Shown here piece after piece: positions 1 to 18,212 of a stretch of DNA of 44,752 bases. The position numbers and the translations under genes are program-made. The stretch's first letter is position 1, and every line of letters begins with the position of its first letter. The notes under the pieces were generated by a model that had not been told where the DNA came from, ran no database searches, and was given only the letters and a program-made list of their open reading frames with translations. The DNA is from a bacterium. Its GTDB lineage: Bacteria > Planctomycetota > Planctomycetia > Gemmatales > Gemmataceae. The stretch spans positions 25,643 through 70,394 of the forward strand of contig JAFKFQ010000284.1 in NCBI GenBank assembly GCA_017308215.1. The letters are read 5' to 3'.

Positions 1-560
1 AGGAACGCCCCGGTGTACCCGCCGCCGGACACGGTGGACAGGAAGTCCACCCGCGGCAGCCACCCGCCGCGGGTGAGCGTGGCGCGTTTGCGGGTGCAGT
101 ACCGGCAGTACATCGAGCAGTTGGGCGTGGTGATGAGCAGCGCCCGGTCCGGGTACCGGTGCGTCAGCCCCGGCACCGGCGAGTCCTTGTCCTCCTCCAG
201 CGGGTCTTCCAGTTCGTACCCCGACTGGTTCTGGCTCTCCAGCGGCGACGGCACGCTCTGGAGGCGGATCGGGTCGAACGGGTCGTCCGGGTCGATGAGC
301 GAGAAGTAGTACGGCGGGATGGCGAGCTTGTACTCGCTCTCGATCCGGCCGATGGCCTCGAGCTCGGCGGGGGAGAAGGTGAGGAGGGTGCGGAGCTGGC
401 GGACGGAGCGGACCGAGTTCTGGGTCTGCCACCGCCAGTCGGTCCAGAGGTGGTCGGGGACATCCGCCCAGGCCGCGTGCCGCCGCGGGCGACTCGGGGG
501 CTCGTCGTCCTCGATACCGGTCCCGGCCGTCGTGAGCGGGCGGGTGTCGGGCTCGGCCAT
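1..560 (-). CDS. kamA: lysine 2,3-aminomutase (KamA family) N-terminal half running into patatin-like sequence; partial
   Basis: The gene runs off the left edge; 186 codons are visible. Residues 1-167 are typical of the radical-SAM, PLP-dependent lysine 2,3-aminomutase family: the HLWTDWRWQTQNSV segment (38-51), the YKLAIPPYYFSLIDPDDP segment (78-95), and the SAM/4Fe-4S motif CSMYCRYC (Cys148, Cys152, Cys155) followed by TRKRATLTRGGW. The family would continue with about 250 more residues holding the SGGDPL region and the PLP lysine. After Trp167 the frame instead reads LPRVDFLSTVSGGGYTGAF, which matches the nucleophile elbow (G-x-S-G-G) of patatin-like phospholipases. As seen here the protein is therefore a chimera and cannot be a working aminomutase. 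The start ATG has GGAGG about 13 nt upstream. The KamA identity is firm; the junction could be a real deletion fusion or an assembly join. Confidence 0.8.
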   Translation of the reverse strand, partial: MAEPDTRPLTTAGTGIEDDEPPSRPRRHAAWADVPDHLWTDWRWQTQNSVRSVRQLRTLLTFSPAELEAIGRIESEYKLAIPPYYFSLIDPDDPFDPIRLQSVPSPLESQNQSGYELEDPLEEDKDSPVPGLTHRYPDRALLITTPNCSMYCRYCTRKRATLTRGGWLPRVDFLSTVSGGGYTGAF

Positions 561-857
561 ACCGGGTTTCGCCTCCACGGGTCCGCTGACCCGGGCCGGT
601 GTCTCCGCTGACGACCGGCACTGCGGGGGGTGGTCTCGGCGGCGGGTCACCGCGCGACGTGCACCTTAAGAACAGATCGTAACGCGGGGTCGGTGAAAAA
701 CAAGTTGACCGTCCGCTGTCACTGCGCGGTTTTTCCCACTTTTTTCCGCAACACCGGCGCGACAGGGCGCGGGCACACCCCCGCTGCCGTCATTCCGCGC
801 GGTCCCGCGCGCCGATACACTTCCCTTTCCGACACCGCGAGCGCGAGCCGACGAGCC
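561..857. other. divergent intergenic region between kamA-like gene and mutS
   Basis: This stretch separates the minus-strand kamA-like gene from plus-strand mutS, so it should hold promoters for both. The mutS frame stays open upstream to about 630, but those codons do not resemble MutS, so they are not counted as coding. No clear RNA, repeat or operator was seen. Confidence 0.5.
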
Positions 858-3440
858 ATGAGCCGGATGATGCAGCAGTACCGGGACGCGAAGGCGCTTC
901 ACCCGGGAATGCTGGTGCTTTTTCGCAACGGCGACTTCTACGAGCTGTTCGAGGAGGACGCCGAACTCGGGTCGAAGGTGCTCGGCCTCACGCTCACCAA
1001 GCGCGACGGCACGATCCCGATGGCGGGCGTGCCGGTGCACCGGCTGGAGCACTACCTCGGTCAGCTCATCAAGGGCGGGCACCGGGTCGCCGTGTGCGAG
1101 CAGATGGAGGAGCCGGACCCGAAGAAGAAGATCATCCACCGCGAGGTGAACCGGGTCGTCACGCCGGGCACGGTGACGGAGGAGGCGCTGCTCGACCCGA
1201 AGGCGCCGAACCACCTCGTCGCCGTGTGGTGCGCGAAGGGCGACGTGGTCGGCGTGGCGTGGGTCGACCTCAGCGTCGGCGCGTTCGGCGCCGCCGACGT
1301 GCCCGCGGCGCGCCTCGCCGACGAGTTCGCGCGCCTCAACCCGTCCGAGGTGCTGTTCGCCGAGGGGCAGGCCGGGGGCGTGGCCGAGGCGGCGGGCGTG
1401 GTGATGCCGCGGACGCGCTCGCCGCGCCCCGACTGGACCTTCGACCCCACCACGGCGGTGCAGGCACTGAAGACGCACTTCCAGGTCTCCACGCTCGCCG
1501 GCTTCGGGTTCGACGACGCGCAGCCGTGCCTCACGGCCGCGGGCGCGGTCGTAATCTACCTTCAAGAAACGCTGCGCGCAAGCCTCGCCCACCTGCGCCG
1601 CCTCCAGCCGCACCGCCCCGACGCGCTCCTCACGCTCGACGAGGTGACGCGGCGCAGCCTCGAACTCACCCGCACCCTCCGCGACGCCCAGCGCGACGGC
1701 TCGCTCCTCGCCGTGCTCGACCGCACGGTCACGCCGATGGGCGCGCGGATGCTGCACGACAGCCTCCTCGCCCCGCTCACCGACCGCACCGCCATCACCG
1801 CCCGCCTCGACGCCGTCGAGGAGCTGGTGAAGGACCACGCCCTCCGCGGGCAGTTGCGCGGCCTGCTCGACGCCTGCTCCGACATCCAGCGCCTCACGAC
1901 GCGCGTCTCGACCGCCCGCGCCACCCCGCCCGACCTGGCGAAGATCGCCGCCACGCTCCGCCTCCTGCCGGCGGTCAAGGCGAAGCTCGCGGGCCGCAAG
2001 TCGGCGCTGCTCGCGGCGCTCGAACAGCGCCTCGAACTCTGCCCCGACCTGCGCGACCTCCTCGACCGCTCGTTGAAGGACGACCCGCCGTTCAGCGCGA
2101 AGGATGGCGGCGTCATCAAGGAGGGGTACAGCCCGGAGCTGGACGAACTCCACAAGCTGTCGAGCGAGGGGAAGGGGTGGATCGCCCGCTACCAGGCGGC
2201 GGAGATCACGCGGACGAACATCGCCAGTCTGAAGGTCGGGTACAACGAGGTCCACGGCTACTACATCGAGGTGACGCACGCCAACACGGCGCGCGTGCCC
2301 GCCGACTACACCCGCAAGCAGACGCTCAAGAACGCCGAGCGGTACATCACCCCGCAGCTGAAGGAGTACGAGGAGAAGGTGCTGTCCGCGCAGGAGAAGA
2401 GCCAGGCGCTGGAGCTGCAACTGTTCACGCAACGCCGCGAGCAGGTCGCCGCGCAGACGCACCGCCTCCTGAACGCCGCCGACGTGCTGGCCGCGGCCGA
2501 CTTCCTCGCCGCCCTCGCCGAACTGGCCGCGTCGCGCAACTACGTCCGCCCGGTGCTCGTGGACGAGCCGGTCCTCGACATCACGGACGGCCGTCACCCG
2601 GTCCTCGACGTGATCCTCCCGCCGGGCACGTTCGTCCCGAACGACGCCGCGTTCGGCCCGGGCGCCGGCACGCTCTGGCTCATCACGGGGCCGAACATGA
2701 GCGGCAAGAGCACGTTCATCCGCCAGGTCGCACTGCTCACGCTCATGGCGCACGTCGGCAGCTTCGTCCCGGCGAAGGCGGCGACGGTCGGGCTCACCGA
2801 CCGCATCTTCACGCGGGTGGGGGCGAGCGACGAACTGAGCCGCGGGCAGAGCACGTTCATGGTCGAGATGACGGAAGCCGCGAACATCCTCAACAACGCC
2901 ACCCCGCGCTCGCTCGTCATCCTCGACGAGATCGGCCGCGGCACGAGCACCTACGACGGCGTGTCGCTGGCGTGGGCGATCACCGAGTACCTGCACGGGG
3001 CGGTCGGCTGCCGGGCGCTGTTCGCCACCCACTACCACGAACTCGCCCAACTCGCGGCGACGCTCCCGAACCTGCGAAACTACAACGTCACCGTGCAGGA
3101 GCACGAGAAGGACGTGGTGTTCCTCCACAAGATCGGCCCGGGGAACGCGGACAAGAGCTACGGCATCCACGTCGCCCGGCTGGCCGGCCTCCCGGAGGCG
3201 GTGCTGGCCCGCGCCGAGGCCGTGCTCGGCACGCTGGAGGCAAGGCACCAGCTCCCCGTCGGCACCCCGCCGCCGGCAATCGAGACACCGACCCCGAAGC
3301 CGCAGGCGCCGTGCGCCGAGCCTGCCGCGCGCCCGGCGCGGAAGAAGCCGGTGCCGCAGCGGGTCGAGCCGCCGGAGGCGCCGAAGCGAAAGCCCGGCCC
3401 GCCGTCGCTGTTCGACGACCCCGACGGCCCGCCGTTCTAA
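858..3440 (+). CDS. mutS: DNA mismatch repair protein MutS
   Basis: This 860-residue protein recognises base mismatches and small loops and starts methyl-independent or methyl-directed repair. Visible parts: the mismatch-reading motif GDFYELFEEDA with Phe27 and Glu29 (the Phe-x-Glu wedge), connector and lever domains, a clamp region, the Walker A motif GPNMSGKS, the ABC signature region, the Walker B motif LDEIGRGTSTYDG and the ATHYHEL segment. A proline-rich, basic C-terminal tail ends in SLFDDPDGPPF. The open frame extends upstream, but similarity to MutS begins at the ATG used here (MSRMMQQYRDAK). Length fits the family (about 850-900). It lies 12 nt before a WD40-type gene, probably co-transcribed by chance. 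Function is certain by family; nothing odd was seen. Confidence 0.97.
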   Translation: MSRMMQQYRDAKALHPGMLVLFRNGDFYELFEEDAELGSKVLGLTLTKRDGTIPMAGVPVHRLEHYLGQLIKGGHRVAVCEQMEEPDPKKKIIHREVNRVVTPGTVTEEALLDPKAPNHLVAVWCAKGDVVGVAWVDLSVGAFGAADVPAARLADEFARLNPSEVLFAEGQAGGVAEAAGVVMPRTRSPRPDWTFDPTTAVQALKTHFQVSTLAGFGFDDAQPCLTAAGAVVIYLQETLRASLAHLRRLQPHRPDALLTLDEVTRRSLELTRTLRDAQRDGSLLAVLDRTVTPMGARMLHDSLLAPLTDRTAITARLDAVEELVKDHALRGQLRGLLDACSDIQRLTTRVSTARATPPDLAKIAATLRLLPAVKAKLAGRKSALLAALEQRLELCPDLRDLLDRSLKDDPPFSAKDGGVIKEGYSPELDELHKLSSEGKGWIARYQAAEITRTNIASLKVGYNEVHGYYIEVTHANTARVPADYTRKQTLKNAERYITPQLKEYEEKVLSAQEKSQALELQLFTQRREQVAAQTHRLLNAADVLAAADFLAALAELAASRNYVRPVLVDEPVLDITDGRHPVLDVILPPGTFVPNDAAFGPGAGTLWLITGPNMSGKSTFIRQVALLTLMAHVGSFVPAKAATVGLTDRIFTRVGASDELSRGQSTFMVEMTEAANILNNATPRSLVILDEIGRGTSTYDGVSLAWAITEYLHGAVGCRALFATHYHELAQLAATLPNLRNYNVTVQEHEKDVVFLHKIGPGNADKSYGIHVARLAGLPEAVLARAEAVLGTLEARHQLPVGTPPPAIETPTPKPQAPCAEPAARPARKKPVPQRVEPPEAPKRKPGPPSLFDDPDGPPF

Positions 3441-3452
3441 CCTGGCCGTCCC

Positions 3453-4398
3453 GTGATCCGACTCCGCTGCCCGCGGGCGCCCGTCCGCTCGCTGACCTTC
3501 TCGCCGGACGGCGACCTGCTCGCCGGCGCCGGCCCGGAGGAAGTGTGGTGCTGGTGCGCGAGCCGCGGGTGGGGGCTCACGGGCCTGAAGCGCTCGGGGT
3601 GGGTCGGCGACGTGGCGTTCCACCCGGGCGGGCGGACGCTCGCGTTCATCGGCCCGCCACCGACCGCGCCCGGCTGGCGCGGGTGGCTGGCGGCGAAGCT
3701 GACGACCGACCCGCCCGCCGTCGGGTTCCACTCGCTCGCCGACAACGGCGCCGTCGCTCCGGATGCGCTCCCGCTGTGGCCGCCCGGGTCACCACCACCC
3801 GGGGCACAGGGCGGACCGGCCTGGACCCCGTGCCTCGCGTTCTCGGCAGACGGCAACACGGTTATCTCGAACACGCTCGACGAGGGCAGTTTCTTCCGGT
3901 TCCCGCGGCACGCCATCCTTCGGTGGCAGCTGACCGACGCCGGGCCGATGCGGGTCGTGAACCCCGAACCGCAACGGCTCGGGACCGAGGACGGGACGTA
4001 CCGGCTCGGCGACCTGTTCGTGATGATCGGCGGCTTCGGGATGCGGGCCTGCCCGTTCGACCCCGGCGACCGGCGGCCGATCGTGGCTCCGCGGTTGAGC
4101 GACGCCGCGGTACTCGCCGTCGCCCGGGTCGGTGAGTGGGTCGCCACGGCGAACCCGACCGGCATCCACATCTGGCACCTGCGCGAGCGGGCGCCCGTCG
4201 CGGTGCTCCCGCCTCCCCCCGGCGGTGCTCGCCGTCGGGAACTGGAACGGGGTGACGATCTGGAACCCGTTGTCCGGCGACCGCGGGAAGTCGTTCGACT
4301 TCGGGGTGGGGCGGGTCATGTCCGTCGCGTACTCGCCCGACGGCCTTCTGCTGGCTGTGGGCGGGACGCGGGGCGTGGTGGTGATCGACGTGGACTGA
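3453..4398 (+). pseudogene. WD40-type beta-propeller protein, frameshifted
   Basis: Starting at GTG 3453, the frame encodes WD40-like blades (VRSLTFSPDGDLLAGAG, VGDVAFHPGGRTLAFIG, later IHIWHLRERAPVAVLP) and then loses similarity. The sense continues in the next frame from about 4221 (AVLAVGNWNGVTIWNPLSGD, then VMSVAYSPDGLLLAVGG) to a stop at 4398. The switch falls at a run of six C at 4215-4220; with one C fewer the two halves join cleanly into a protein of about 314 residues. That equals the length of the intact relative at 6192-7148, so the two are probably paralogues. The break is either a true frameshift mutation or a homopolymer sequencing error. Partners and function are unknown; such propellers usually act as protein-binding scaffolds. 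Confidence 0.75.
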
Positions 4399-4404
4399 TG
4401 CGGG

Positions 4405-4678
4405 TCAGCGCGACGCCGGCGAGGGTCGCCCGGGGAGTTGGACCAGCACCGCGTCGTCCTTCAGCACGCGGCGGTAGATCTCGGAAAGCGGGCCGGTGTG
4501 AAGCACCACCGGGGCGCCGTCGCCGAGCCGGCCCGTCGCTCACCTTGGCGGTTACGATCTGCGGCCCCGGGCTCGACGGCAGCGCCGCGACGACGCCAGC
4601 CGTGCGGGCGAGTAGCAGCACGGGGCCTGCGGGCGGGACACGGCGCGTCCGATCGGGGAGTGACAAGGTTCGCCGCAC
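4405..4678 (-). pseudogene. decayed, internally deleted paralogue of the neighbouring secreted protein
   Basis: Reading the minus strand, one frame gives a hydrophobic signal-like stretch then PGPQIVTAKVSDG, matching APKLVVARVNEG of the gene at 4679-5470. A second frame, 1 nt out of phase and preceded by a TGA, gives RLGDGAPVVLHTGPLSEIY and KDDAVLVQLPG before a stop at 4405-4407. These match RLGKGAGVVLHTGPIADEI and KSDAVFVEVPG of the neighbour. The middle of the protein (the VPVNRQIDIPVNENGQQVI region) is missing. It is a tandem duplicate that has lost its centre and its frame. Not expected to make a useful product. Confidence 0.6.
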
Positions 4679-5470
4679 TCACGGCCGCGGCGCCGGGAGC
4701 AGGTCCGCGGGGGGTGGAGGTGCCGGCCGGGTGGCGGGCGGTGCTGGGGTCGGAGCGGCCGGGGCCGGGAACACACGCAAGCCCGGTTGCGGCGGTGCCC
4801 CGCCCGGGACCGGCGCCGGGCGGGCGAACTCGGACGTCACACCGTCGACGAACCCGCCCGGCGCGGCGAACGCCGGCTGGGCGAACCCGCCGACCCCGCC
4901 GGGGACTTCCACGAATACCGCATCACTCTTGAACATGGCCTTGATCTCGTCTGCGATCGGCCCGGTGTGGAGCACCACCCCCGCCCCCTTCCCAAGGCGG
5001 ATTTCGAGGGCGAGTGGCTGAATCCGCTTCCCGGCCGCGTCGCGCGCCTTAAGGCCGTCCAGCGGGATCGAGTTCTCCCGCGTCTGTTGCTGCATGCTGG
5101 TGGTCATCGCCTTGCGGATCACCTGCTGCCCGTTCTCGTTCACCGGAATGTCGATCTGCCGGTTCACCGGTACCACCTCGGTCGAGGACCAGACCAGCGC
5201 CCCCTCGTTCACCCGGGCGACCACCAGTTTCGGCGCCGATGCGCCCGCGCCGCGAGAGCCGCCCTGGATGACAAGGCCGCCCTGCGGGACGACGAAGTTC
5301 TGAGGTTGGGCCGGAACCGCCAGCGGGGGCTGAGCCGGTACGGTGGGTACGACTCGGCCCGGGGGCACGGGCTGGGCTGGACCGGAACCGGGGACGGCGG
5401 GGGGCGGTTGCTGGGCGGCGGCCGGTCCGACCACGGCGAGGAGCAGAACGGCGGCAGCGGAGCGTGACAT
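4679..5470 (-). CDS. secreted proline-rich protein of unknown function
   Basis: The 263-residue product begins with a signal peptide (MSRSAAAVLLLAVVGPAAAQ), so it is exported. A Pro/Gln/Val-rich linker follows (about 20-75), then a compact central domain (about 80-200) with KLVVARVNEGALVW, DIPVNENGQQVIRKAM and IRLGKGAGVVLHTGPIADE, then a second Pro/Ala-rich tail. No catalytic motif was recognised. The start was chosen because it opens the signal peptide and has GAGGGTG just upstream; the frame is open further upstream without coding character. A broken tandem paralogue lies immediately downstream. The Pro-rich flanks suggest an extended periplasmic or surface protein; that is inference. Confidence 0.7.
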   Translation of the reverse strand: MSRSAAAVLLLAVVGPAAAQQPPPAVPGSGPAQPVPPGRVVPTVPAQPPLAVPAQPQNFVVPQGGLVIQGGSRGAGASAPKLVVARVNEGALVWSSTEVVPVNRQIDIPVNENGQQVIRKAMTTSMQQQTRENSIPLDGLKARDAAGKRIQPLALEIRLGKGAGVVLHTGPIADEIKAMFKSDAVFVEVPGGVGGFAQPAFAAPGGFVDGVTSEFARPAPVPGGAPPQPGLRVFPAPAAPTPAPPATRPAPPPPADLLPAPRP

Positions 5471-5654
5471 GGGGCACCCTCGGATGAGGCTGAGCGACCT
5501 GAGAATAACCGACCCTGCCCACCCGGGCAACGGCCGACGGCGCATCTTCATTGTCTTGCCCGCCCGCGGGCCGGCGCTCGGCCGGTCGAGGTTGACTCCC
5601 GGCGGACCGTCGGGAGAATGGCCCCATCCCGTGTCCACGGAAGGAGCCCGCCGG

Positions 5655-6149
5655 ATGAACGTACCCCTGCCCAAATACGCCGAGCGCGGCCCGATCCACG
5701 ACGTGGTGTGGGTGCCGCTCAAGTTCTACCACGACCAGCGCGGGTGGCTCGTCGAGTTGTTCCGCAACGACCTGATCGACCCGAAGTACCACCCGGTCAT
5801 GGCCTACGTGTCGCAGACCAAGCCCGGCGTCGCCCGCGGCCCGCACGAGCACGTCGACCAGTCGGACTACTTCTGCTTCGTCGGCCCGTCCACGTTCCGC
5901 GTCTACCTGTGGGACGCCCGCAAGGACTCGCCGACCTACGGCAAGAAGGAGATCCGCGAGGTGGGCGAGGACGCGGCGTACGCGCTGATCGTGCCGCCGG
6001 GCGTGGTCCACGCCTACAAGAACGTCGGCGGGAAGGACGGGCTCGTGTTCAACGGCGCGAACCGCCTCTACGCCGGGTGGCTGAAGCAAGACCCGGTGGA
6101 CGAGATCCGCCACGAGGCCGACGCGGACAGCCCGTACCAGCTCGACTGA
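5655..6149 (+). CDS. dTDP-4-dehydrorhamnose 3,5-epimerase family protein (RmlC-like cupin)
   Basis: This 164-residue protein belongs to the RmlC cupin family, which epimerises 4-keto-6-deoxy sugar nucleotides on the way to L-rhamnose and related sugars. Seen: DQRGWLVELFRND (the DxRG-type start of the fold), the segment QTKPGVARGPHEHVDQSDYF with candidate catalytic His, LWDARKDSPTYG, and LIVPPGVVHAYKNVGG near the end of the barrel. AAGGAG at 5641-5646 sits 8 nt before the ATG, and upstream in-frame codons look non-coding, which fixes the start. It is slightly shorter than typical RmlC (about 180). It stands alone, away from other rml genes, so its exact sugar is uncertain. Confidence 0.85.
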   Translation: MNVPLPKYAERGPIHDVVWVPLKFYHDQRGWLVELFRNDLIDPKYHPVMAYVSQTKPGVARGPHEHVDQSDYFCFVGPSTFRVYLWDARKDSPTYGKKEIREVGEDAAYALIVPPGVVHAYKNVGGKDGLVFNGANRLYAGWLKQDPVDEIRHEADADSPYQLD

Positions 6150-6191
6150 CCCGCGAACCGATCCCGCCGGCGCGGCGTCTGATGGGGTGCC

Positions 6192-7148
6192 ATGCACGCC
6201 GTCCGCACCGCGTCCGGTCACCCCGTCTGTCGGGTCGCCTTCTCCCCGTGCGGGAACTGGTTCGCCACCGCCCAGCCGAACCACGGCGTTACCGTGTACG
6301 ACCGCGCCGGCGCGGCGGTGCGCACGGTCGGCAGCCCACGCTGGACGGATTACACGGGTCTAACGTTCTGCCACGGTGGGGCATGGATCGCGGCCGCCGG
6401 GTTGAAGGGCATTGCGGTGTACGACGCGGCGACCGGCGCATGCCTCGGCTCGACCCACTACCAATCCATGCGGGGCTTCCGGCTGGGCTCAACGGGTGAC
6501 GTGCTGCTCGGAGTCGGCCGAGGGGCGATTCTCGAACTACTCGTTCATCCCGGTGAGCCGATGATCGGCCGGACGGTCTGGTCCGTCACGGCGGGCGAGT
6601 CCGGCGAAGTCTCGCACGAGGGCCGGTGGGCGGTTGCCTTCCGGCCAACCGGGCGACCGATCGTGGTCGATCTCCTGTCGGGGCAGGAGTCCCACGTTCT
6701 CGACCACCCGGCGCGGAACCGTCCGAACGTGCCGGGGCAGCACGCGGCGCCCGTCGTGGGCTTCGCTACCGCCCCGCGGGCCGCGCTCGCCGCCGGAACC
6801 TCGGTCGCCGTCTTCGATCTCACGCCCGCGGTCGATCGGCCGGTCGCCTCGGATGAGCTACCCGCCCCGCGGCCGGTCGAGAAGGCGTGTTTTACCCTCC
6901 CGCCGCCTAACTGCTGGCCTGCTGGGAAGCCGTGGTGTCCCCCGTTCTCGCTGACGCCAGACGGACGCGGGCTGCTGGTGAAGCGGCCGCGCGAACGAGT
7001 ACAACTCTGGGATGTGGACGCCGGCACGCTCGACGTCGAGTGGAGCTGGCGGCTCGACGGGATTACCTGCCTTGCGGTCGCGCCGGACGGGCTGACGGCC
7101 GTGGCGGGCGCCCGCCACGGCCGCCTGGTGATGTGGGATCTGGCGTAG
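6192..7148 (+). CDS. WD40-type beta-propeller protein
   Basis: The 318-residue product carries irregular WD40 blades: VCRVAFSPCGNWFATAQPNH, LTFCHGGAWIAAAGLKGIAVY, FSLTPDGRGLLVKRPRERVQLW and CLAVAPDGLTAVAGARHGRL ending VMWDLA. It has no signal peptide and no kinase or enzyme domain, so it is probably a cytoplasmic scaffold. Length and layout match the frameshifted gene at 3453-4398, and both sit in the same 4-kb stretch, which suggests duplication. It starts 42 nt after the epimerase stop and may share its transcript. Partners unknown. Confidence 0.75.
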   Translation: MHAVRTASGHPVCRVAFSPCGNWFATAQPNHGVTVYDRAGAAVRTVGSPRWTDYTGLTFCHGGAWIAAAGLKGIAVYDAATGACLGSTHYQSMRGFRLGSTGDVLLGVGRGAILELLVHPGEPMIGRTVWSVTAGESGEVSHEGRWAVAFRPTGRPIVVDLLSGQESHVLDHPARNRPNVPGQHAAPVVGFATAPRAALAAGTSVAVFDLTPAVDRPVASDELPAPRPVEKACFTLPPPNCWPAGKPWCPPFSLTPDGRGLLVKRPRERVQLWDVDAGTLDVEWSWRLDGITCLAVAPDGLTAVAGARHGRLVMWDLA

Positions 7149-7153
7149 CTCGG

Positions 7154-7888
7154 CTACGGTTCGTCCGGGTCGAGCCCGAGCGCCCGCAGTTTCGCCGCGA
7201 ACTTCTCCGCCCGCTCCCGCTCCGCGTCGGCGCGTTGCTGCTCGGCTTCCGCCCGGCGTTTCTCGGCCTCGGCACGGCGGGTCTCAGCCTCGGCGCGGCC
7301 GCGCTCCTGATTCGCCAGCTCCCCGAGTTCCACGAAAGACAGGAACCGCCGCCCGTCCGGACCGTACAGTTGTAGCTCCGGATCGTCCTCGAAGCGGACG
7401 CCGAGGCGCGGGCTGACCCACCCGTTCACGTCGGGAATCGGGTCGAGCCCGGCCGGGCCGCGCGCGTAGCCGCGGAGTGTTCCGCGGTCCGGGTCGATGA
7501 CGTAGTACTCCTCCGCGCCGTAGGTCGTGTAAGTCGTGTAAAAGGCGAGCTTGCGGCGGAGTTCGCCGGCGCGGTTCCCCGGCGACAGCACCTCGAACAC
7601 CACCTGCGGGAACGTGTCGCCCTCGTCCCACACCTTGTAACTGCCGCGGTCCCCCTTCGGGCGGCCGAACGCCACGTACACGTCCGGCGCCTGGCGGATC
7701 GTGTTGCTCCCGCGGACCGGGTAGATGAGGTTGTCCCCGGCGACGAACACGTCCGCCCGAGCGGCGAAGAGAAGATCCAGATTTCCCTGGACGGTCACGA
7801 TCCAGCGGAACTGGATGGTGTTGTCCGACATCGGCTTCCCGTCCGAGTCGGGGTAGATGACTCCGGCGTCCGAGGTGGCGTGGCTCAT
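7154..7888 (-). CDS. Uma2 family protein (DUF820, PD-(D/E)XK-like fold) with C-terminal coiled coil
   Basis: The 244-residue product shows the Uma2/DUF820 pattern: an N-terminal LFAARADVFVAGDNLIYP segment, APDVYVAFGRP, the core QVVFEVLSPGNRAGELRRK with Glu and Lys of the nuclease-like fold, and EEYYVIDPDRGTLRGY. The last 60 residues are a charged heptad stretch with repeats of RRAEAE, a coiled coil common in planctomycete members. The family is abundant in cyanobacteria and planctomycetes; its nuclease role is predicted by fold rather than shown. The start has a strong GGGGGAGG before ATG, which fixes it. It lies 13 nt downstream of the sigma-factor gene and is very likely co-transcribed with it. 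Confidence 0.85.
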   Translation of the reverse strand: MSHATSDAGVIYPDSDGKPMSDNTIQFRWIVTVQGNLDLLFAARADVFVAGDNLIYPVRGSNTIRQAPDVYVAFGRPKGDRGSYKVWDEGDTFPQVVFEVLSPGNRAGELRRKLAFYTTYTTYGAEEYYVIDPDRGTLRGYARGPAGLDPIPDVNGWVSPRLGVRFEDDPELQLYGPDGRRFLSFVELGELANQERGRAEAETRRAEAEKRRAEAEQQRADAERERAEKFAAKLRALGLDPDEP

Positions 7889-7901
7889 GGCGCCTCCCCC
7901 G

Positions 7902-8573
7902 TCAACTCGTCGGGCCGGGGCGTTTGGCCTTCGGCACCTTTTTCGACGTCGGCTCGGGCGGGGCGAGCTTCGTCGCGTCGGTGGACAGCTTGGCGAGTTC
8001 CCGCAGCTTCTTCCGGGCACGCGACAGGACGGCGCCGATCGTGTTCACCGGCACGTCCGTCTCGGTGCTGATCTCCTCGTAGGTCCGCCCCTCCAGGTAG
8101 TACAGGCGCACGATCTCGCGCTCGCGGCCCTTCAGCCGCTTCAAGAGCCCGTCCACCTCTTCCAGCCGCTCGATCCCCTTCGCCGCCGCCGGCGCGTCGT
8201 CCGCCTCCGGTTCGGGGAGGCGCGACTCGCCGCGGTTGATCGACCCGAGCACCTGCTGGCGGCGCGCCAGTTCCTTCACGCAGATGCGGCGGGCGATGAC
8301 GGTCAGGTACGTCGCCAGGCTCGACTCCCCGCGGAACTCGCGGAGAACGCGGAAGTTGTCGTCCACGAGCTTCACCAGCACCTCGGCGGCGATGTCCTCC
8401 AGGTCTTCCGGGCCGACCCGGGCGCTGCGGAGGTGGGCGGTGTACTGGATGGCGTGGTAGATGAGGCTGATGAACCGGTCGACGAAGTCGTTCCACGAGC
8501 CGGGCGCCTTGGCGAGGCACCGCTTGAGGAGGTCGCGGTCGACCGCGGTGAACGAGTTGTTTGGGGTACTCAC
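7902..8573 (-). CDS. ECF-type RNA polymerase sigma factor
   Basis: The 223-residue product has a sigma region 2 (about 20-95: FVDRFISLIYHAIQYTAHL, EDLEDIAAEVLVKLVDDNF, LATYLTVIARRICVKELAR) and a sigma region 4 helix-turn-helix (about 140-190: EVDGLLKRLKGREREIVRLY, YEEISTETDVPVNTIGAVLS, RARKKLREL). It would direct RNA polymerase to a limited regulon. The C-terminal tail is Lys/Pro-rich and disordered. The start is GTG with a weak upstream site. No anti-sigma gene is next to it; the downstream partner is the Uma2 gene. It is of the planctomycete ECF type rather than a housekeeping sigma; the exact ECF group was not determined. Confidence 0.88.
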   Translation of the reverse strand: MSTPNNSFTAVDRDLLKRCLAKAPGSWNDFVDRFISLIYHAIQYTAHLRSARVGPEDLEDIAAEVLVKLVDDNFRVLREFRGESSLATYLTVIARRICVKELARRQQVLGSINRGESRLPEPEADDAPAAAKGIERLEEVDGLLKRLKGREREIVRLYYLEGRTYEEISTETDVPVNTIGAVLSRARKKLRELAKLSTDATKLAPPEPTSKKVPKAKRPGPTS

Positions 8574-8720
8574 GGGGGATCCCGGGTGTGGTGCGGGTCC
8601 GCTCCGGGGATCCCTCCCACACCAGCGTACCCGGCCGGGCGCGGTGACTCAAGCGGCCCGGCCGCGGCGCGGCGTTGCCCCATCATAGCCGAGTCGGCAC
8701 CGCCGCTACAACCGACCGGG

Positions 8721-9725
8721 TCACGCCCGCCAGAATCGTACGAGTTCCCGAGTCATGAAGTGCCACAGCCCGCGGGCGGCGAGCCAGCTCTTGCGGGCCT
8801 TGTCGGTGCGGCCACGGAGCAACCGCGTCGCCGCCTGCGCGCACTTCGCCAGGCACTGCACCGGCGCGTCGGCGGTCACGAACAGCTTGTACACGGCCAG
8901 CGCCGTCGGCGTGGCGCCGGCCTTGCGGAAGTAGTGGACGTAGCCGATCGCCACGTTCGGTGCGGAGAACCCGATGTTCTTCCGGCTCGACACCCGGCCG
9001 TAGTGCACGACCTCCACGTCGCCGACGTACACCAGCTCGCGCCGCCGCCCGACCTGCGTCGAGAGGTCGATGTCCTCGCCGCCGAACCGGTACTGCTCGT
9101 CCCACCGGCCGCTGTCCTCGAACACCGCCCGCGGCAGGAACACGGCGGCGCCCATCAGCACCTCGACCGGGCGCACGCCCTCGGGGTCGAACGTGTCGCG
9201 GCGGTAGTCGTAGTAGGCGCGGCGGAACAGCCCGGTCCAGCGCAGTAGGCTGACGCGGTGGAGCAGCGCCCCGAGCGTCGGCCGGCGGCGGTAGGAGATC
9301 TGCGCGGTCCCGTCGCCGCCGCGGAGCCGCGGGCCGACCATCCCGACCGACGGGTTGGCCTCGGCGAATTCGAGGAACTTCCGCAGCGTGTCCGGCGGGA
9401 CGACGGTGTCGTTGTTGAGGAAGAACAGGTAGCGGCCGCGGGCGAGCGCGGCGGCCTGGTTGTTGGCCTTCGAGAACCCGCGGTTCTCGCGGTTGCGGAC
9501 GAGCGTCACGCCGGGGAACTCGGCGGCCACCATGTCGGCGGCGCCGTCGGCCGAGGCGTTGTCCACCACGACCACCTCGAACGACACGCCCTGCGGCTGG
9601 TCGTACAGGGATTCGAGGCAGCGGCGCAACAGCTCGCGGCAGTTCCAGTTGGCGATGCAGACGGACACGTCCACCACCGCCGGCGGGCTCACCACGATCG
9701 GGACGGCGGGGAGGGTCTTCGGCAT
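8721..9725 (-). CDS. family 2 glycosyltransferase (rhamnosyltransferase-like)
   Basis: The 334-residue protein begins with the GT-A fold pattern VDVSVCIANWNCRELLRRCL, then VVVVDNASADGAADM, ENRGFSKANNQA and FLNNDTVVPPDTL, the nucleotide-sugar and metal-binding region. It continues with GAAVFLPRAVFEDSGRWDEQ and FGGEDIDLSTQV, which carries the acceptor-side ED motif. This order is typical of WbbL/RfbF-like transferases that add rhamnose or similar sugars to surface glycans. The tail holds basic helices that could sit on the membrane. It faces away from the DUF1080 gene and is separate from the main polysaccharide operon at 24.3-29.4 kb. Acceptor and donor sugar are unknown. Confidence 0.88.
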   Translation of the reverse strand: MPKTLPAVPIVVSPPAVVDVSVCIANWNCRELLRRCLESLYDQPQGVSFEVVVVDNASADGAADMVAAEFPGVTLVRNRENRGFSKANNQAAALARGRYLFFLNNDTVVPPDTLRKFLEFAEANPSVGMVGPRLRGGDGTAQISYRRRPTLGALLHRVSLLRWTGLFRRAYYDYRRDTFDPEGVRPVEVLMGAAVFLPRAVFEDSGRWDEQYRFGGEDIDLSTQVGRRRELVYVGDVEVVHYGRVSSRKNIGFSAPNVAIGYVHYFRKAGATPTALAVYKLFVTADAPVQCLAKCAQAATRLLRGRTDKARKSWLAARGLWHFMTRELVRFWRA

Positions 9726-9923
9726 GAAGCGCGTCCTGCGGGTGCCCTACGACCGGCCCGAGTCCTCCGGCCGGATTCGTGGTTCTACCCGCCCCCGCGC
9801 GGGGTGTCAACCTGAACCGGCGGGCGGGTTTCCGGTTGCCCGGGCCGGGGCCGGGGCTTACGCTGACCCGGCACCCGCCCCGGGTGTCCTGCCACCTGCT
9901 CCCGTCCGCCGGAGTTCACAACC

Positions 9924-10688
9924 ATGAGAGCCGCCTTGCTCCTCGCCTCGGTCACCGCCGCCGGGGTCGCCTCGCTCACGCCCCGTGGCACCGCGGCCGA
10001 CGCCCCGAAGGCGCCGCCCGGGTTCGTGGCGCTGTTCAACGGCAAGGATCTGACGGGGTGGGTCGGGCACACGACGATGCCCGAGCGGGCGAAGCTCGGC
10101 TCGGACAAGCTCGCCGCGCTGCGGGCGGAGCGCACCAAGAAGACGGAGGGGCACTGGAAGGTCGAGAACGGCGTCATCGCCTACGACGGCAAGTCCGGCG
10201 TGAGCCTCGTGACGGAGAAGGACTACGCCAACTTCGAGCTGCTGATCGACTGGAAGATCGAGGCGAAGGGGGACAGCGGGCTGTACCTCCGCGGCCAGCC
10301 GCAGGTGCAGATCTGGGACTCGGAGACGAGCCCGGGCGCTCGCGGCGTGGACAAGAATTCGGGGTCCGGCGGGCTGTGGAACACCCCGTACCCGCCCGGC
10401 ACCGACACGAAGGACGACGCCGCCACGCTCGCGGCGGGGAAGAAGGTCGGCAAGATCCCGCTGAAGAATGCCGACCGGCCGGTGGGCCAGTGGAACACGT
10501 TCCACATCACGATGGTCGGCGACAAGGTGACGGTGAAGCTGAACGGCGAACTCGTGGTGGACCGGGCGGCGCTGCCGAACTACTGGGACAAGGGCCGGCC
10601 GCTGCCGGCCGCCGGTCCGATCGAGCTCCAGCACCACGGCGACCCGCTGTGGTTCAAGAACATCTACATCAAGGAACTGCCGAACTGA
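9924..10688 (+). CDS. DUF1080 (3-keto-disaccharide hydrolase-like) secreted protein
   Basis: The 254-residue product has a signal peptide (MRAALLLASVTAAGVASL..., cleavage near residue 25) and one DUF1080 concanavalin-like beta-sandwich. Seen: GFVALFNGKDLTGWVGH, HWKVENGVIAYDGKSGVSL, NFELLIDWKIEAKGDSGLYL, QVQIWDSE, GQWNTFHITMVGDKVTVKLN and PIELQHHGDPLWFKNIYIKE. The family is hugely expanded in planctomycetes and Bacteroidota, and some members act on 3-keto-glycosides. It is periplasmic or surface-exposed. It ends in front of a perfect palindrome shared with the convergent ychF gene. Substrate not predictable from sequence. Confidence 0.9.
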   Translation: MRAALLLASVTAAGVASLTPRGTAADAPKAPPGFVALFNGKDLTGWVGHTTMPERAKLGSDKLAALRAERTKKTEGHWKVENGVIAYDGKSGVSLVTEKDYANFELLIDWKIEAKGDSGLYLRGQPQVQIWDSETSPGARGVDKNSGSGGLWNTPYPPGTDTKDDAATLAAGKKVGKIPLKNADRPVGQWNTFHITMVGDKVTVKLNGELVVDRAALPNYWDKGRPLPAAGPIELQHHGDPLWFKNIYIKELPN

Positions 10689-10696
10689 CCCCGCCG

Positions 10697-10734
10697 CCGC
10701 CCGCTGCGTCGCACCGGTGCGACGCAGCGGGCGG
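10697..10734. terminator. bidirectional terminator-like perfect palindrome
   Basis: A 38-bp perfect palindrome with no loop, centred on ACCGGT (10713-10718), lies in the 48 nt between the convergent stops of the DUF1080 gene and ychF. There is no T-run, so termination would be of the hairpin-only kind. Placement between convergent genes supports the call. Confidence 0.6.
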
Positions 10735-10736
10735 TG

Positions 10737-11837
10737 TCAGACGTTGAACCGGAAGTGTAGCACGTCGCCGTCCTGCACCGGGTATTCCTTCCCCTCGAGC
10801 CGGAACCGCCCCGCCTTCTTCGCCCCCGTCTCGCCGTCGAACTCGACGTAGTCCGAGTACGACACCGTCTCGGCCCGGATGAACCCCTTCTCGAAGTCGG
10901 TGTGGATCACCCCGGCGGCCTGCGGGGCGAGCATCCCGGCGGGGATCGTCCACGCCCGCGCCTCCTTCGGGCCGACGGTGAAGTACGTCACCAGGTCCAA
11001 CAGCGTGTAGCCGGCCCGGATGACCCGCGCGAGCCCCGTCTCGGCGAGCCCGATGGCCGCGAGGAAGTCGGCCTTCTCGGACTCGGGGAGGAGCGAAATC
11101 TCCGACTCGATCTTCGCCGACACCACCACGCACGGCGCGCCGCGCTCCTTCGCCATCGCCTCCACCTGCGCCGACAGCACGTTCCCGGTCGCCGCCGACG
11201 ACTCGTCCACGTTGCACACGAACATCACCGGTTTGGTCGTGAGCAGCTGCATGTTTGCCAGCAGCTTCCGCTCGGAATCGTCGCGCGTGGCGACGGACCG
11301 CGCCGGCTTGCCGTCGGACACGACCTTCAGCACGCGCTCCATCAGTCCGACCTGCTCCTGGGCGTCGCGGTCGCCGGCCTTCGCCTTCTTCTGCGTTGAG
11401 GGGACGCGCTTCTCCAGGCTCTCCAGGTCGGCCAGGATCAGTTCCATCTCGACGATGTCGGCGTCGCGGAGCGGGTCGATGCCGCCCTCGACGTGGACGA
11501 TGTCGCCGTCGGCGAAGCAGCGGAGGACGTAGAGGATCGCGTCCACCTCGCGGATGTGCGAGAGGAACTGGTTGCCGAGCCCCTCGCCCTTGCTCGCCCC
11601 GCGGACGAGGCCGGCGATGTCAACGAACTCCAGCTGCGTCGGGATGAGCTTCGCCGAGCCGGCGATCTTCGCCAGCGTGTCGAGCCGCGGGTCGGGGACT
11701 TCGACCCGGCCGACGTTCGGCTCGATGGTGCAGAACGGGTAGTTCGCCGCCTGCGCCTGCATGGTCGAGAGGAGGGCGTTGAACAGGGTCGATTTGCCGA
11801 CGTTCGGGAGGCCGACGATACCGCAGCGGAAGCCCAT
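10737..11837 (-). CDS. ychF: ribosome-binding ATPase YchF (Obg family)
   Basis: The 366-residue protein is the universal YchF/OLA1 P-loop ATPase, a translation-associated stress factor. Seen: Walker A GLPNVGKS (residues 9-16), the AANYPFCTIEPNVG switch region, the G3 motif DIAGLVRGASKGEGLGNQF, and NVDE in place of the GTPase NKxD, the change that gives ATP preference. The helical coiled-coil insert (about 125-200) and a C-terminal TGS domain ending in GDVLHFRFNV are also present. Length fits the family (about 363). The start ATG follows GGAG. It may be co-transcribed with the dehydrogenase upstream, 62 nt away. Confidence 0.96.
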   Translation of the reverse strand: MGFRCGIVGLPNVGKSTLFNALLSTMQAQAANYPFCTIEPNVGRVEVPDPRLDTLAKIAGSAKLIPTQLEFVDIAGLVRGASKGEGLGNQFLSHIREVDAILYVLRCFADGDIVHVEGGIDPLRDADIVEMELILADLESLEKRVPSTQKKAKAGDRDAQEQVGLMERVLKVVSDGKPARSVATRDDSERKLLANMQLLTTKPVMFVCNVDESSAATGNVLSAQVEAMAKERGAPCVVVSAKIESEISLLPESEKADFLAAIGLAETGLARVIRAGYTLLDLVTYFTVGPKEARAWTIPAGMLAPQAAGVIHTDFEKGFIRAETVSYSDYVEFDGETGAKKAGRFRLEGKEYPVQDGDVLHFRFNV

Positions 11838-11899
11838 GCCAACTGTCTCCGGGACGGGGGCGCCGAAACAGCCGAGATACGGGTTCCGCCGGCGAGCGG

Positions 11900-12904
11900 C
11901 TACAGGGTTAACACGACCTTCCCGACGTGCCCGCCGGCCGCGAGGTGGTCGAACGCCGCCCGCGCCGCCGCGAACGGGAACACGCGGTCGATCACGGGGC
12001 GGATCTGCTTCCCCGCGATGACCGCGTTCATCGCCTCGAACCGCGCCCGCGAGCCGACGAAGATGCCGTGGACGGTTACCCCCTTCATCACGGCCAGGAT
12101 CGGGTTGAACGTGCCCGGCCCGGACAGCACGCCGATCAGCCCGACGTGCCCGCCGTAGCGCACGCAGCGCAAGGACTTTTCCATCGTCCCCGCACCACCG
12201 ACCTCGACCACCAGATCGACGCCGTGCTTCCCCGTCTGATCCCACGCCCACTTCTCCCACGCCGGCACGTCGGCGGTGACGCACACGGCGTCGGCGCCGA
12301 GCGCGGTCGCGCGGTCCGCCTTGTCCGCGCTGCGGGTCGTCAGCAGCACGCGGGCACCGAGCGCCTTCGCCAGCTGGAGCGCGAAGATCGAGACGCCGCC
12401 GGTGCCCTGGACGAGCACCGTCGAACCGACGCCGACGCCCGCGACGTGAAGCGCGTGCCACGCCGTCACCGCGGCGCACGGTAGCGTCGCCGCCTCCTCG
12501 AAACTCAGGTGATCGGGCACGGCGACCAGCCCCCCCTCCTCGAACACCACGAGTTCGGCCAGAACGCCGTCGCGGTCCGCCCCGAGTGCCGAGCGGGCGG
12601 CGGCCTCGCTCACCGGGCCGTCGGCCCAGTCTTGGAAGAAGCAACCGATCACGCGGTCGCCGGGCTTCCATTTCACCACCCCCTCCCCCGCGGCGACAAC
12701 CTCGCCGGCGCCGTCCGAGCCGAGGACGCGCGGCAGCGGCAGCTTCGGGTTGTACTCGCCGCGGGCCACCATCAGGTCGCGGTAGTTCAGCGACGCCGCC
12801 CGCACCCGCACCAGCACCTGACCCGGGCCCGGCGTCGGGTCGGGGCGGTCCTCGTGCGTCAGGTGGTCGAGGCCGAACCCGCCGCGGAGTACGAACGCCT
12901 TCAT
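11900..12904 (-). CDS. medium-chain NAD(P)-dependent dehydrogenase (quinone oxidoreductase-like)
   Basis: The 334-residue product has the MDR fold: a GroES-like N-terminal domain ([48 protein letters not shown]) and a Rossmann domain with [20 protein letters not shown] for NAD(P) binding, then [20 protein letters not shown]. The four-cysteine structural zinc lobe of classical alcohol dehydrogenases is missing, which points to the zinc-free quinone/enone reductase branch. AAAGGA precedes the ATG. It is cytoplasmic. Substrate cannot be named from sequence. Confidence 0.88.
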
Positions 12905-13010
12905 CGGGGCAGTCCTTTCTGAATCGCGGGGCGTCGGGCGGCGTCAGTTATGGTACACTGGCCCGTGGGCGACTCGCCGCCCCCGGCACCACGTCACGGT
13001 TCTTGACCGC

Positions 13011-15968
13011 ATGACCCCGGCCGATTCACTGCAACTCGACGAGCACCTGGCCCGACTCCTCGCGGCCTACGACCAGGGGATCGGCGCGGCCGACGGGAAG
13101 GCGCCCACCCTCGGCCTCCAGTCGCTCGTCAACGAGGGGTCGTTCAGCGACGTGCTCCCCGACGTGACGCGCACCCCGCCGCCGGTGCCGTCCGGCCCGC
13201 ACCGGATCGGCCGGTACGAGCTCCGCAAGCAGCTCGGCAAGGGCGGGTGCGGGATCGTCTTCCTCGCCTACGACCCGAAGCTCAAGCGCGAGGTCGCGCT
13301 CAAGGTGCCGCGGCCGGAGATGATGCTCAGCCCGGACGCCCGCCGCCGGCTGGCGCGCGAGGCGCGGGCCGCCGCCGAGTTCGACCACCCGAACCTGGTC
13401 CCCGTCTACGAGTCCGGCGAGATCGGCCCGCTGTCGTTCGTCGCCACCGCCTTCTGCCCCGGCCGCACCCTCGCCGACTGGCTCGACCGGCAGGCGTTCC
13501 CGGTGCCGGTCCGGCAGGCGGCGCGGCTCGTCGCCACCGTCGGCGACGCCGTCCAGCACGCCCACGACCGCGGCGTCCTCCACCGCGACCTGAAGCCGAA
13601 CAACGTGCTGCTGATGGAGTCGAAGGGGTTCCCGCTCGACCAGGGGCCGCCGCCCGGGTCGGTGCCGCTGCGCGGCGAGCACTTCGTCCCGCGCGTGGTG
13701 GACTTCGGCCTCGCCAAGCTGATGGAGCCGGTGCCGGGCGAGACGGCGACGCGGCAGGTGCTCGGCACGCCGCGGTACATGGCGCCCGAGCAGGCGCAGG
13801 CCCGGCACGAGGACGTGGACGTCCGCGCCGACGTGTACGCCCTCGGCGTCATCCTCTACGAACTCCTCGCCGGCCGCCCGCCGTTCGACGGCGCGACCGA
13901 CGTGGAAATCCTGCGCCAGGCGATCGACGGCCGGCTCGTCCCGCCGCGCGAACTGCGGGGCGACGTGCCGCGCGACCTGGAGGCGATCTGCCTCAAGGCG
14001 ATGGCGCGGAACCCGGTGAAGCGCTACCGCACGGCGATCGACTTCGCCGACGACCTGCGCCGGTTCCTCGACGGCCGCCCGACGCTCGCCCGGCCGCTGA
14101 AGTGGACCGGCCGCGCCGCCCGCTGGCTCCGCCGCAACGACCAGTGGGTCGCGCTCGGGGTGGTCGTCGCCATCGCGCTGGTGTTCGTCACCATCGGCGT
14201 GTGGCACATGCGGGAGACCGAGCAGTTGCGGAGCGACCGCGACTTCACCCAGGCCGCCCGCTACCGGGCCGACCGCGAGCGCGACCACGCCCGGCACATC
14301 CGCGACGCCTTCCTCGCCTGGCGCGCCGGCGACGCGCAGCAGATGGCCGACTCGCTCACCGCGGCGCAGGCGGCGGCCGGGCTCAACGGCGACCCGCCCG
14401 GGTTCACCTGGGGCTACCTCGCCCAGCTCGGGCGGGTGGAGCGGGTGTCGGTCCCGTGCCCGGCCGGGTCCGCGACGGCGCTGGCGGTGAGCCCGGACGG
14501 CACCCGCGCCGCCACCGGCCACGCCGACGGCACGGTCGCGGTGTGGGAACGGGCCACCGGGCGGCTCCTCGGCGGGGCAAAGGCGCACACCAAGGCCGTA
14601 GCGCACGTCGGGTTTGTGGCCGGCGGGTCGGGGCTGGTGTCGGCCGCGGTCGGCGAGCGCCTCCACGTCTGGGCCGTCGGGCCGAATGGGGCGCCGCGGG
14701 CCGCGTCGGACGCCCCGTCGCTCCCCCGGGCGGTCGCGGCGCTGGCCGTGAGCGCGGACGGGCGGCGGGTGCTGGCGGCGACCGCCGGCGGGGCCGTGGT
14801 CGTGTGGAACCCGGCCGAGGCGCGGGCGGACCAGGGGTGGGAGGCGGGCGATCCCCCGACCGCGGTCGCGCTGTCGCCGGACGGGAAGACGGCCGCCACC
14901 GCCGGCGAGACCACCCGGCTGTGGGACGCCGACACCGGCCGGGCGCTCGGCGAGGTCCGCGGCGCGGACGGGGCGGCGGCACTGGCCTTCCTCCCGGACG
15001 GTGAGGGCGGCTGGCTCCTCGCCGCGCTGAAGGACGACGCGGCGGTGGCCAAGCACTTCGTTGCGGTGTCCACGAACGCGAAGGAAGTGAGCAAGTTCGG
15101 CATCGACACGGCGAACATGTTCGGCTTCTGGGACTGGGTCGGCGGGCGGTACTCGATGGACTCGGCGATCGGCCTGAGCACGATGCTCGCGGCCGGGCCG
15201 GACGGGTTCCGCCAGATGCTCGACGGGTTCCGGGCGATGGACGAGCACTTCCGCACCGCCCCGTTCGAGAAGAACCTGCCGGCGCTGCTCGGGCTCCTGA
15301 CCGTGTGGTACGTCAACTTCTTCGGCGCCCAGTCGGTCGCGGTGCTGCCGTACGACCAGTACCTGAAGCGGTTCCCGGCGTACCTCCAGCAGCTGACGAT
15401 GGAGAGCAACGGCAAGCGCGTGACGCTCGCCGGCGCGGAGGTGGACTACTCGACCGGCCCGGTGTACTGGGGCGAGCCGGGGACGAACGGGCAGCACAGC
15501 TTCTACCAGCTCATCCACCAGGGGACGAACCTGATCCCGTGCGACTTCCTGTTCTTCGCCAAGTCGCTGAACGCGGTCGGCCGGCACCACGACCTGCTGA
15601 CGGCGAACGTGCTGGCGCAGGCGGAGGCGCTGGCGTTCGGGAAGACGGCCGCCGAGGTGAAGGCCGAGGGCGTGGCCGACGCACTCGTGCCGCACAAGAC
15701 GTTCCCGGGGAACCACCCGTCGAACGTCCTCTTCGTGGAAAAGCTCACGCCGTTCGCCCTGGGGACGCTGGTGGCGCTGTACGAGCACAGCGTCTTCACG
15801 CAGGGCGTGGTGTGGGACATCGGCTCGTTCGACCAGTGGGGCGTCGAGCTGGGGAAGGTGCTGGCGCAGCGCATCGTGCCGGAGCTGGAGGCGCCGGCGG
15901 AGCCGGACTTGAAGCACGACTCCTCGACGAACGCGCTCATCTGCCGCTACCGCGCGGCGAAGGGATGA
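13011..15968 (+). CDS. membrane-anchored Ser/Thr kinase with WD40 repeats, joined in frame to the C-terminal part of glucose-6-phosphate isomerase
   Basis: One uninterrupted 985-codon frame. Residues 68-355 are a Hanks-type kinase: Gly-rich loop GKGGCG (76-81), Lys98, HRDLKPNN (Asp193), DFG (231-233) and APEQ (258-261). A transmembrane helix follows at about 379-398, a linker, then about four WD40 blades (490-665; e.g. [18 protein letters not shown]). From about residue 668 the sequence is glucose-6-phosphate isomerase: [16 protein letters not shown], signature [14 protein letters not shown] (708-721), [19 protein letters not shown] and signature [17 protein letters not shown] (933-949), to a normal Pgi C-terminus. 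The first 220 or so residues of Pgi, with the GIGGS and SKTFTT phosphate-binding segments, are absent, so isomerase activity is unlikely without a partner. The WD40 part is short. The join is at 15012-15030. A real gene fusion by deletion, or an assembly join, both remain possible. Confidence 0.85.
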
Positions 15969-16022
15969 CGGCGGCCGGTCCATCGCGCCGGCGATCGTAG
16001 TGTTCCGGCGGTGGCGTATTGG

Positions 16023-16039
16023 TTGGTAGCCGCAGGCTT
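16023..16039. repeat. half copy of the 29-30 bp-arm dispersed palindrome
   Basis: The 17 nt TTGGTAGCCGCAGGCTT match the outer arm of the elements at 20956, 24291 and 33067, but the opposite arm is absent. The copy lies between the convergent ends of the kinase fusion and the sulfatase, so it is probably a truncated remnant. Confidence 0.6.
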
Positions 16040-16045
16040 GAGTAC

Positions 16046-17488
16046 CTAATCCTTCTTTTTCTTCTTCGCCGCCGCCCCCGGCGGGACCGGGAGCGGCACA
16101 AAGTCTCGCTGGAGGATCATCCACTCCTGGAGCGCGGCCTTCAGCTCGCGCTCGACCGGCGCTGACTCCGGACGGCCGGCGAGGTTCGTCAGCTCGTGCG
16201 GGTCGGTCTGGAGGTCGTACACCTCGAACATCGGCCGCGTCGGCGCGAAGTACATCTTCCGCAACGGCTCCGCCAACGTCCCGGCGCGGTTCTGCTCCTC
16301 CAGCTCCTTCCACATCGGGTCGCCGGCGAAGTCCACCGGCCAGTACGGGATCTGCCACAGGGCGTTGTAGATCAGCTTGTACCGCTCCGCGACCACACAC
16401 CGGCCCAGGTCGAACGCCGCCGAGTTGGTCGGCAGCCCGGACCCGTGCGCCCCGCGCTGCGCGAACACGTGCTTCCGCGCCTCGTGCTTCTCGCCGCGGC
16501 GCAGCGGCAGGACGCTCTTGCCGCTCATCTCGCGCGGCACGTCCACGCCGGCCGCCGACAGGAACGTCGGCGCCAGGTCTTCGCCCGAGACGAGCTGCGG
16601 CGCCACGGCGCCGGCGCGCACGCCCGGCCCCCGCACCAGCAGCGGGCAGTGGATACCGAACTCGTACAGCGTCCCCTTCCCGCGGAACTGCGCCGCGCCG
16701 TTGTCGCCCGACACCGCCACCAGCGTGTTCGCGTCCAGCCCGCGGCGGCGGAGCTCTTCCAGGACCGTGCCGACGTCGGCGTCGAACCGGGCGATCTCGT
16801 CGTAGTACGCGGCGTAGTCCCGCCGCACGAGCTGGGTGTCCGGGTAGAACGGCGGAAGCGTGAGGCGCGCCGGGTCGTGCGGCGTCGGGACGCCGCCGGG
16901 CGTGTACGGCCGGTGCGGGTCGGAGAAGCACAGTTGCAGCACGAACGGCCGCCCCTTCGGCACCGCGTCGAGGAACTCGCGGAATTGCGTGAGGATCTGC
17001 TCGCGGGCGCCGGCGGTCTTCACGAAGTCGAGGCGGCGCGGGAAGGTGCGGAGGTCGAACCGGCGGAACACCTCCTCGGTCTCGGGCGGCGTCGCCGCCC
17101 CGTCGAGGTGAAACGACCGCCCGGCGACGCCGGCGAAGTACCCGGCGCGCTGCTTCAGCAGTTCGGGAAACGTGTGGTACTCGGCGGCGAGCGGTGCCGA
17201 GAAGCGGGTGTTCTGCACGGCGATCGCCGACCGCCCGGTCATGATGGTGGCGCGCGACGGCACGCACTGCGGCGTGCCGACGTAGTAGCGCTCGAACCGC
17301 GTGGCGGTCTTGGCGAAGGCGTCGAGGTTCGGGGTGCGGATGTCCTTGTTGCCGTAGCAACCGACGTGCGCGGCGCTGTGGTCGTCGGACAGGATCAGGA
17401 GGATGTTCGGCTTGTCCGCGGGCTGGGCGAAGGCCGGGGCGCCGGCCGCGGCAAGCGCCGCGCACGCGAGGAGGAGGCGGGAGAGCAT
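16046..17488 (-). CDS. secreted arylsulfatase-type sulfatase
   Basis: The 480-residue protein has a signal peptide (MLSRLLLACAALAAAGAPAFA) and a type I sulfatase domain. PNILLILSDDHSAAHVGCYG supplies the metal-binding Asp35-Asp36. CVPSRATIMTG has Cys75 in the C-x-P-S-R motif that is converted to formylglycine, so it should be active if the maturase is present. FSDPHRPYTPGG, SGDNGAAQFRGKGT and YDLQTDPHELTNLAG complete the pattern. It would remove sulfate esters from polysaccharides in the periplasm. The tail ends in five lysines and Asp. The start was placed at the signal peptide with GGAG upstream rather than 26 codons earlier. The substrate cannot be read from sequence. Confidence 0.93.
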   Translation of the reverse strand: MLSRLLLACAALAAAGAPAFAQPADKPNILLILSDDHSAAHVGCYGNKDIRTPNLDAFAKTATRFERYYVGTPQCVPSRATIMTGRSAIAVQNTRFSAPLAAEYHTFPELLKQRAGYFAGVAGRSFHLDGAATPPETEEVFRRFDLRTFPRRLDFVKTAGAREQILTQFREFLDAVPKGRPFVLQLCFSDPHRPYTPGGVPTPHDPARLTLPPFYPDTQLVRRDYAAYYDEIARFDADVGTVLEELRRRGLDANTLVAVSGDNGAAQFRGKGTLYEFGIHCPLLVRGPGVRAGAVAPQLVSGEDLAPTFLSAAGVDVPREMSGKSVLPLRRGEKHEARKHVFAQRGAHGSGLPTNSAAFDLGRCVVAERYKLIYNALWQIPYWPVDFAGDPMWKELEEQNRAGTLAEPLRKMYFAPTRPMFEVYDLQTDPHELTNLAGRPESAPVERELKAALQEWMILQRDFVPLPVPPGAAAKKKKKD

Positions 17489-17598
17489 GAGCTGGCTCCG
17501 GGTTTTTGACTCGGGGCTTTGTAGTGGTGCGTCGGCCGATCCGCGTCGGCCCCGGCGACCGGCCATTGTGCGCGGGCGGCGCTCGCCGGTCCAGTCGG

Positions 17599-17997
17599 TC
17601 AGTGCGGGCCGGCGGTCATCCCCGCGTACTCGGCGGCCACCCGGCCCGCCGCCCCACTACCCCGATCGGACTCGGCCCGCACCCCGGCGACGAGCGTGCG
17701 CGCGACCCGGGCGCGCCGGTCCGGGGCGTCGGGGTACTGCCGGTCGAGCGTCTCCAGCCAGTCCGGGTAGCTGCGGCCCGCGTCGAGGAGCAAGTCCACG
17801 GCCTCGGCGAGCGACAGCCGCCCGCGGACAAACTCGGTCACCAGCCGGTGCAGGTACTCCGACCGCGCGTCGCGCTCCTGCCTCATCACCTCCAGCCGGG
17901 CGGCCTCCGCCCCCGCGCCCCCGCCTTGGAGCCGGGCGGCCACCAGACCGACTGCCACCGCCGCCGCCGCGGCCGCCGCCGCCCGCACCCCACGCAT
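17599..17997 (-). CDS. small membrane-anchored hypothetical protein
   Basis: The 132-residue product starts MRGVRAAAAAAAAVAVGLVA, an Ala-rich N-terminal helix that could be a signal anchor. It continues with an amphipathic helical region (EAARLEVMRQERDARSEYLH, GRLSLAEAVDLLLDAGRSYP, DWLETLDRQYPDAPDRRARV). A GGGAGGGA site just before the ATG supports this start. No family was recognised. It lies between the sulfatase and the glucosidase and is transcribed like the sulfatase, 110 nt upstream of it. Helical content and the anchor suggest a periplasmic domain; function unknown. Confidence 0.6.
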   Translation of the reverse strand: MRGVRAAAAAAAAVAVGLVAARLQGGGAGAEAARLEVMRQERDARSEYLHRLVTEFVRGRLSLAEAVDLLLDAGRSYPDWLETLDRQYPDAPDRRARVARTLVAGVRAESDRGSGAAGRVAAEYAGMTAGPH

Positions 17998-18212
17998 GTC
18001 CGGTCCCTCCCGTGCCGCGGGCCGTGCGGCCCCGCACCGGGAAACGGGAACCGGGCGCCGGCGTCGCCGTGAGAAATGTCTGAGCCACGCCGGCCGACGT
18101 TCGGATTGACACACCGCTGTCACCGGCGGGGCGGGCGAAACGCGGGGCCGGAGCTTGGCACGGCCGCCCCGGCGGCTACCATCTGTGAACAGACCGCCGA
18201 TCGAGGGGACCG

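Follow-up and report, generated by a model that had tools for sequence, protein, structure and literature searches.

A chimeric reading frame at the edge of a contig window

The window, the whole stretch of 44,752 nucleotides analysed here (C766:25643-70394), derives from a planctomycete draft genome of 766 contigs with a completeness of 84.9 %, and no runs of N were found within it. Its left edge is occupied by a minus-strand open reading frame (3..650), which is open at the window edge and reads ...TTPNCSMYCRYCTRKRATLTRGGWLPRVDFLSTVSGGGYTGAF. Across window 1-650, this frame follows the KamA family (putative lysine 2,3-aminomutase) through the CSMYCRYC (CxxxCxxC) motif to RKRATLTRGGW, where it changes to LPRVDFLSTVSGGGYTGAF, a patatin-like motif. 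Residues 30-161 of the chimeric frame match the NCBIfam families TIGR03820 (lysine 2,3-aminomutase; E 2.2e-42) and TIGR00238 (E 5.7e-35), while the tail is identical to a part of a patatin-like ORF that is recognised by Pfam PF01734 (E 1.2e-6). The tryptophan before the change is residue 167 of the frame, numbering from the methionine at approximately window 560. Three minus-strand features can be distinguished, namely a foreign tip of 59 bases with patatin-like coding (LPRVDFLSTVSGGGYTGAF; 1..59), which is alien to kamA and identical to C79:9619-9677, a word of 20 bases that is common to kamA and the patatin gene of contig C79 (60..79), and the genuine 5' part of a kamA-family radical SAM aminomutase gene including CxxxCxxC (60..560; TIGR00238 and TIGR03820).

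The probable patatin-like donor gene

The first 79 bases of the window are identical to C79:9619-9697 (79/79 bases; E 5e-34), far beyond what is expected by chance, and the base-for-base identity stops at window 79. On C79 these bases encode the N-terminal nucleophile region within an intact patatin-like ORF of 864 amino acids with its own start (VALSGGGIRSATFALGVLQALTRGGWLPRVDFLSTVSGGGYTGAFLGRFFDQ...), which incorporates GGGIRS and a nucleophile-like motif VSGGGY and scores 29.3 bits against PF01734 (cut-off 27.7). It thus resembles the patatin-like phospholipase family, and lies on another contig, unconnected to kamA. The reading of KamA followed by patatin, with Trp167 and an in-frame join, had been proposed in the first-pass annotation, and both the family matches and the 79/79 identity bear it out; the observation itself is accurate and its domain reading is confirmed. 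The patatin 5' end, which had been considered missing, is located in this intact gene.

The C79 ORF (L005:7326-9854, minus strand) has a hydrophobic middle portion, which is probably membrane-spanning, and a paralogue of it occurs on contig C448. The latter was considered as an alternative donor, given a 91 % match at C448:1708-1750, and was rejected, as this is a paralogous patatin in a frame of 744 amino acids, the DNA of which does not include the 20-base shared word.

kamA continues beyond a scaffold gap

A run of 26 Ns (C766:25617-25642) directly abuts window base 1. Beyond it the minus strand again encodes KamA (VIVSGGDPLTLPVGKL...), continuing to a normal C-terminus and stop. This remainder of the gene is situated outside the window at C766:24776-25616; the minus-strand reading just left of the Ns is VIVSGGDPLTLPVGKLRYYLENLKAIDHIDVIRVGTRVPVTLPQ..., and the kamA piece left of the gap reads VIVSGGDPLTLPVGKLRYYLENLKAIDH.... 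When the genome was searched with the KamA-family profile just two matches were obtained, comprising profile positions 5-134 to the right of the gap and 162-329 (C766:25115-25618) to the left of it. As the profile is matched in two pieces flanking the gap, this is a single kamA gene split by a scaffold gap. The first-pass annotation had itself named a return to kamA left of position 1 as refuting its proposal, and kamA does return there; its supposedly missing 3' end lies 26 Ns away. The in-frame chimera that had been described therefore stands as a reading of the frame and falls as a real gene.

Both genuine pieces match the KamA family (TIGR00238, TIGR03820), with CxxxCxxC on one side of the gap and SGGD on the other, although the approximately 65 bases between them are missing from this assembly, and the spacing between the two motifs is hidden by the Ns. 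In all five same-genus genomes exactly 65 bases separate the corresponding kamA blocks, coding for (E)(G/E)(I/V)SADDERMI(D/E)YVR.... As written, the assembly has 59 foreign bases and 26 Ns in this position, or 85 bases, which is 20 more than in the relatives, and kamA is out of frame across the gap. The N count is evidently 20 too long and the gap length an estimate, in which case the loss of frame is to be expected.

Comparison with kamA in related genomes

The 5' part of kamA (60..560) shares 94 % protein identity with the same gene in the complete genome of a relative, G004. A DNA search with window bases 1-20,000 showed this genome to be collinear with window 60-3438, which includes kamA and mutS (87 % in the DNA alignment), with the alignment at the kamA locus beginning exactly at window 60. 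Lipase sequence within kamA is absent from five of five same-genus genomes, which encode an intact KamA instead. A wider homologue survey covered loci from 20 relatives together with 64 named records. Every close planctomycete kamA with a readable radical-SAM motif encodes CxxxCxxC and then SGGD at a fixed spacing, and the KamA-patatin domain order was seen in no relative, with the readable close homologues all continuing as KamA. A single homologue, at locus L053, tripped a loose lipase pattern in an open frame of 1156 amino acids. It was rejected as a fusion, since it represents an intact KamA after a GC-rich open frame, and lipase-like sequence was not seen in the latter.

A genuine family of KamA-patatin fusion proteins, which has the in-frame reading as its sole support, can on these grounds be considered vanishingly improbable. 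The sequence to the left of the window, in which KamA continues beyond the gap, already rules it out. Furthermore, an intact copy of the patatin gene occurs at another place in the genome, a patatin was carried by none of the kamA genes examined from planctomycetes, and the first 177 residues of the C79 patatin have no close homologue in the eight relatives searched (five of them same-genus).

kamA and the patatin gene have a 20-base word in common

The kamA DNA similarity to same-genus relatives begins at window 60, while the patatin identity runs through window 79; window 60-79 is therefore common to both sources. The join falls between bases 59 and 60 of the window, on the border of this word. 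On the minus strand the word (CGCTCACCCGCGGCGGGTGG) has exactly two copies in the genome, even when one mismatch is allowed, one being in kamA and the other in the C79 patatin gene. Following the word, the patatin gene continues with CTGCCG, whereas the kamA genes of the relatives have GAG or GAA. Both genes encode LTRGGW in the same phase with the shared word, and it is only because of this that the reading frame is kept across the join. Short coding words that two genes have in common, in the same phase, can thus give rise to in-frame 'fusion genes' in GC-rich drafts. Shared words of 20 bases are not rare in this genome, which has a GC content of 72 %: once the joins are masked, eighteen canonical 20-mers are common to different contigs or pieces in approximately 98 kb, and some of these 20-mers come from paralogous patatins.

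The GC-rich stretch that had been reported to be capable of pairing at the join is present, and reads CACCCGC-C-GCGGGTG at about window 61-75. Biological recombination through this inverted repeat was rejected, as kamA is picked up again on the far side of the gap with a roughly normal spacing. It is also highly unlikely that some 59 or more patatin bases were really copied into kamA via the 20-base word, as a short insertion or gene-conversion tract that disrupted kamA in this strain. The microhomology of 20 bases and the perfect identity to the donor would be consistent with such an event, as would the masking of the gap sequence by the 26 Ns. However, the foreign stretch ends exactly at the contig end beside the Ns, the 85 bases between the kamA blocks (the gap being estimated) are near the normal 65 and leave little room for an insert, nothing similar occurs in any relative examined, and the other join in this contig points to assembly. 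There is equally little chance that the Ns conceal a real, strain-specific event in which recombination at the 20-base word carried patatin sequence into kamA.

The aminomutase-lipase fusion is instead almost certainly an assembly artefact at a scaffold gap and not a real gene. In de Bruijn graph assemblies, chimeric contig ends and mis-joins arise at words shared between loci. The characteristics of a mis-join are found at window 1-79, where the sequence abuts a gap, the donor is intact elsewhere, a shared word is located at the join and the gene resumes beyond it. The likeness extends to the position of the join exactly in the 20-base shared word, to the foreign tip ending at the scaffold gap and to the occurrence of a second, similar join in the same contig. 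The assembler, extending the kamA contig leftward, most likely met the word that also occurs in the C79 patatin gene and took the wrong branch, whereupon 59 patatin bases would have been added before extension stopped. This branch error would have lain beside a break in coverage or in the graph, and the inverted repeat in the shared word may have lowered the read coverage. Scaffolding would then have placed the rest of kamA correctly, with a 26-N gap of estimated length, leaving the wrong tip uncorrected.

The kinase-Pgi join

The second join, between a kinase-WD40 gene and pgi, is located on the plus strand at 15005..15022, with approximately 18 bases compatible with both the kinase side and the Pgi side. 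Within the window, Pgi is matched from profile position 174 onwards, while positions 1-190, and with them the pgi 5' half, are encoded on contig C357, where the match ends at the first bases of the contig. The end of C357 is 100 % identical to window 15007-15064 in their overlap, and the divergence sets in exactly at 15007. Window 8712-15022 corresponds to 2.878-2.884 Mb of G004, not far from kamA (2.909 Mb), whereas window 15005-15957 corresponds to 7.247-7.248 Mb, directly adjoining the position of the C357 end (7.248-7.252 Mb), and the two sides are thus 4.36 Mb apart. The G004 kinase gene runs past the join position with its own sequence, and in six of six relatives searched the Pgi match lies apart from every match to the kinase part. 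From the C357 overlap, the G004 map positions and the relatives, it is very likely that the kinase-Pgi join is a mis-assembly of the same kind as the kamA-patatin join, and that the window sequence to its right comes from another part of the chromosome.

A shared cause for the two joins, as had been suggested, is very probably correct; it is most likely assembly and not biology, with mis-assembly at short shared GC-rich words fitting both. Before claims of fusion or gene loss are made from C766, the tip at window 1-59 should be ignored and approximately 15,005-15,022 treated as wrongly joined. Collinearity with G004 also switches from 4.313 Mb to 2.878 Mb at window 8712-8723, which may reflect either a genuine rearrangement or a third mis-join.
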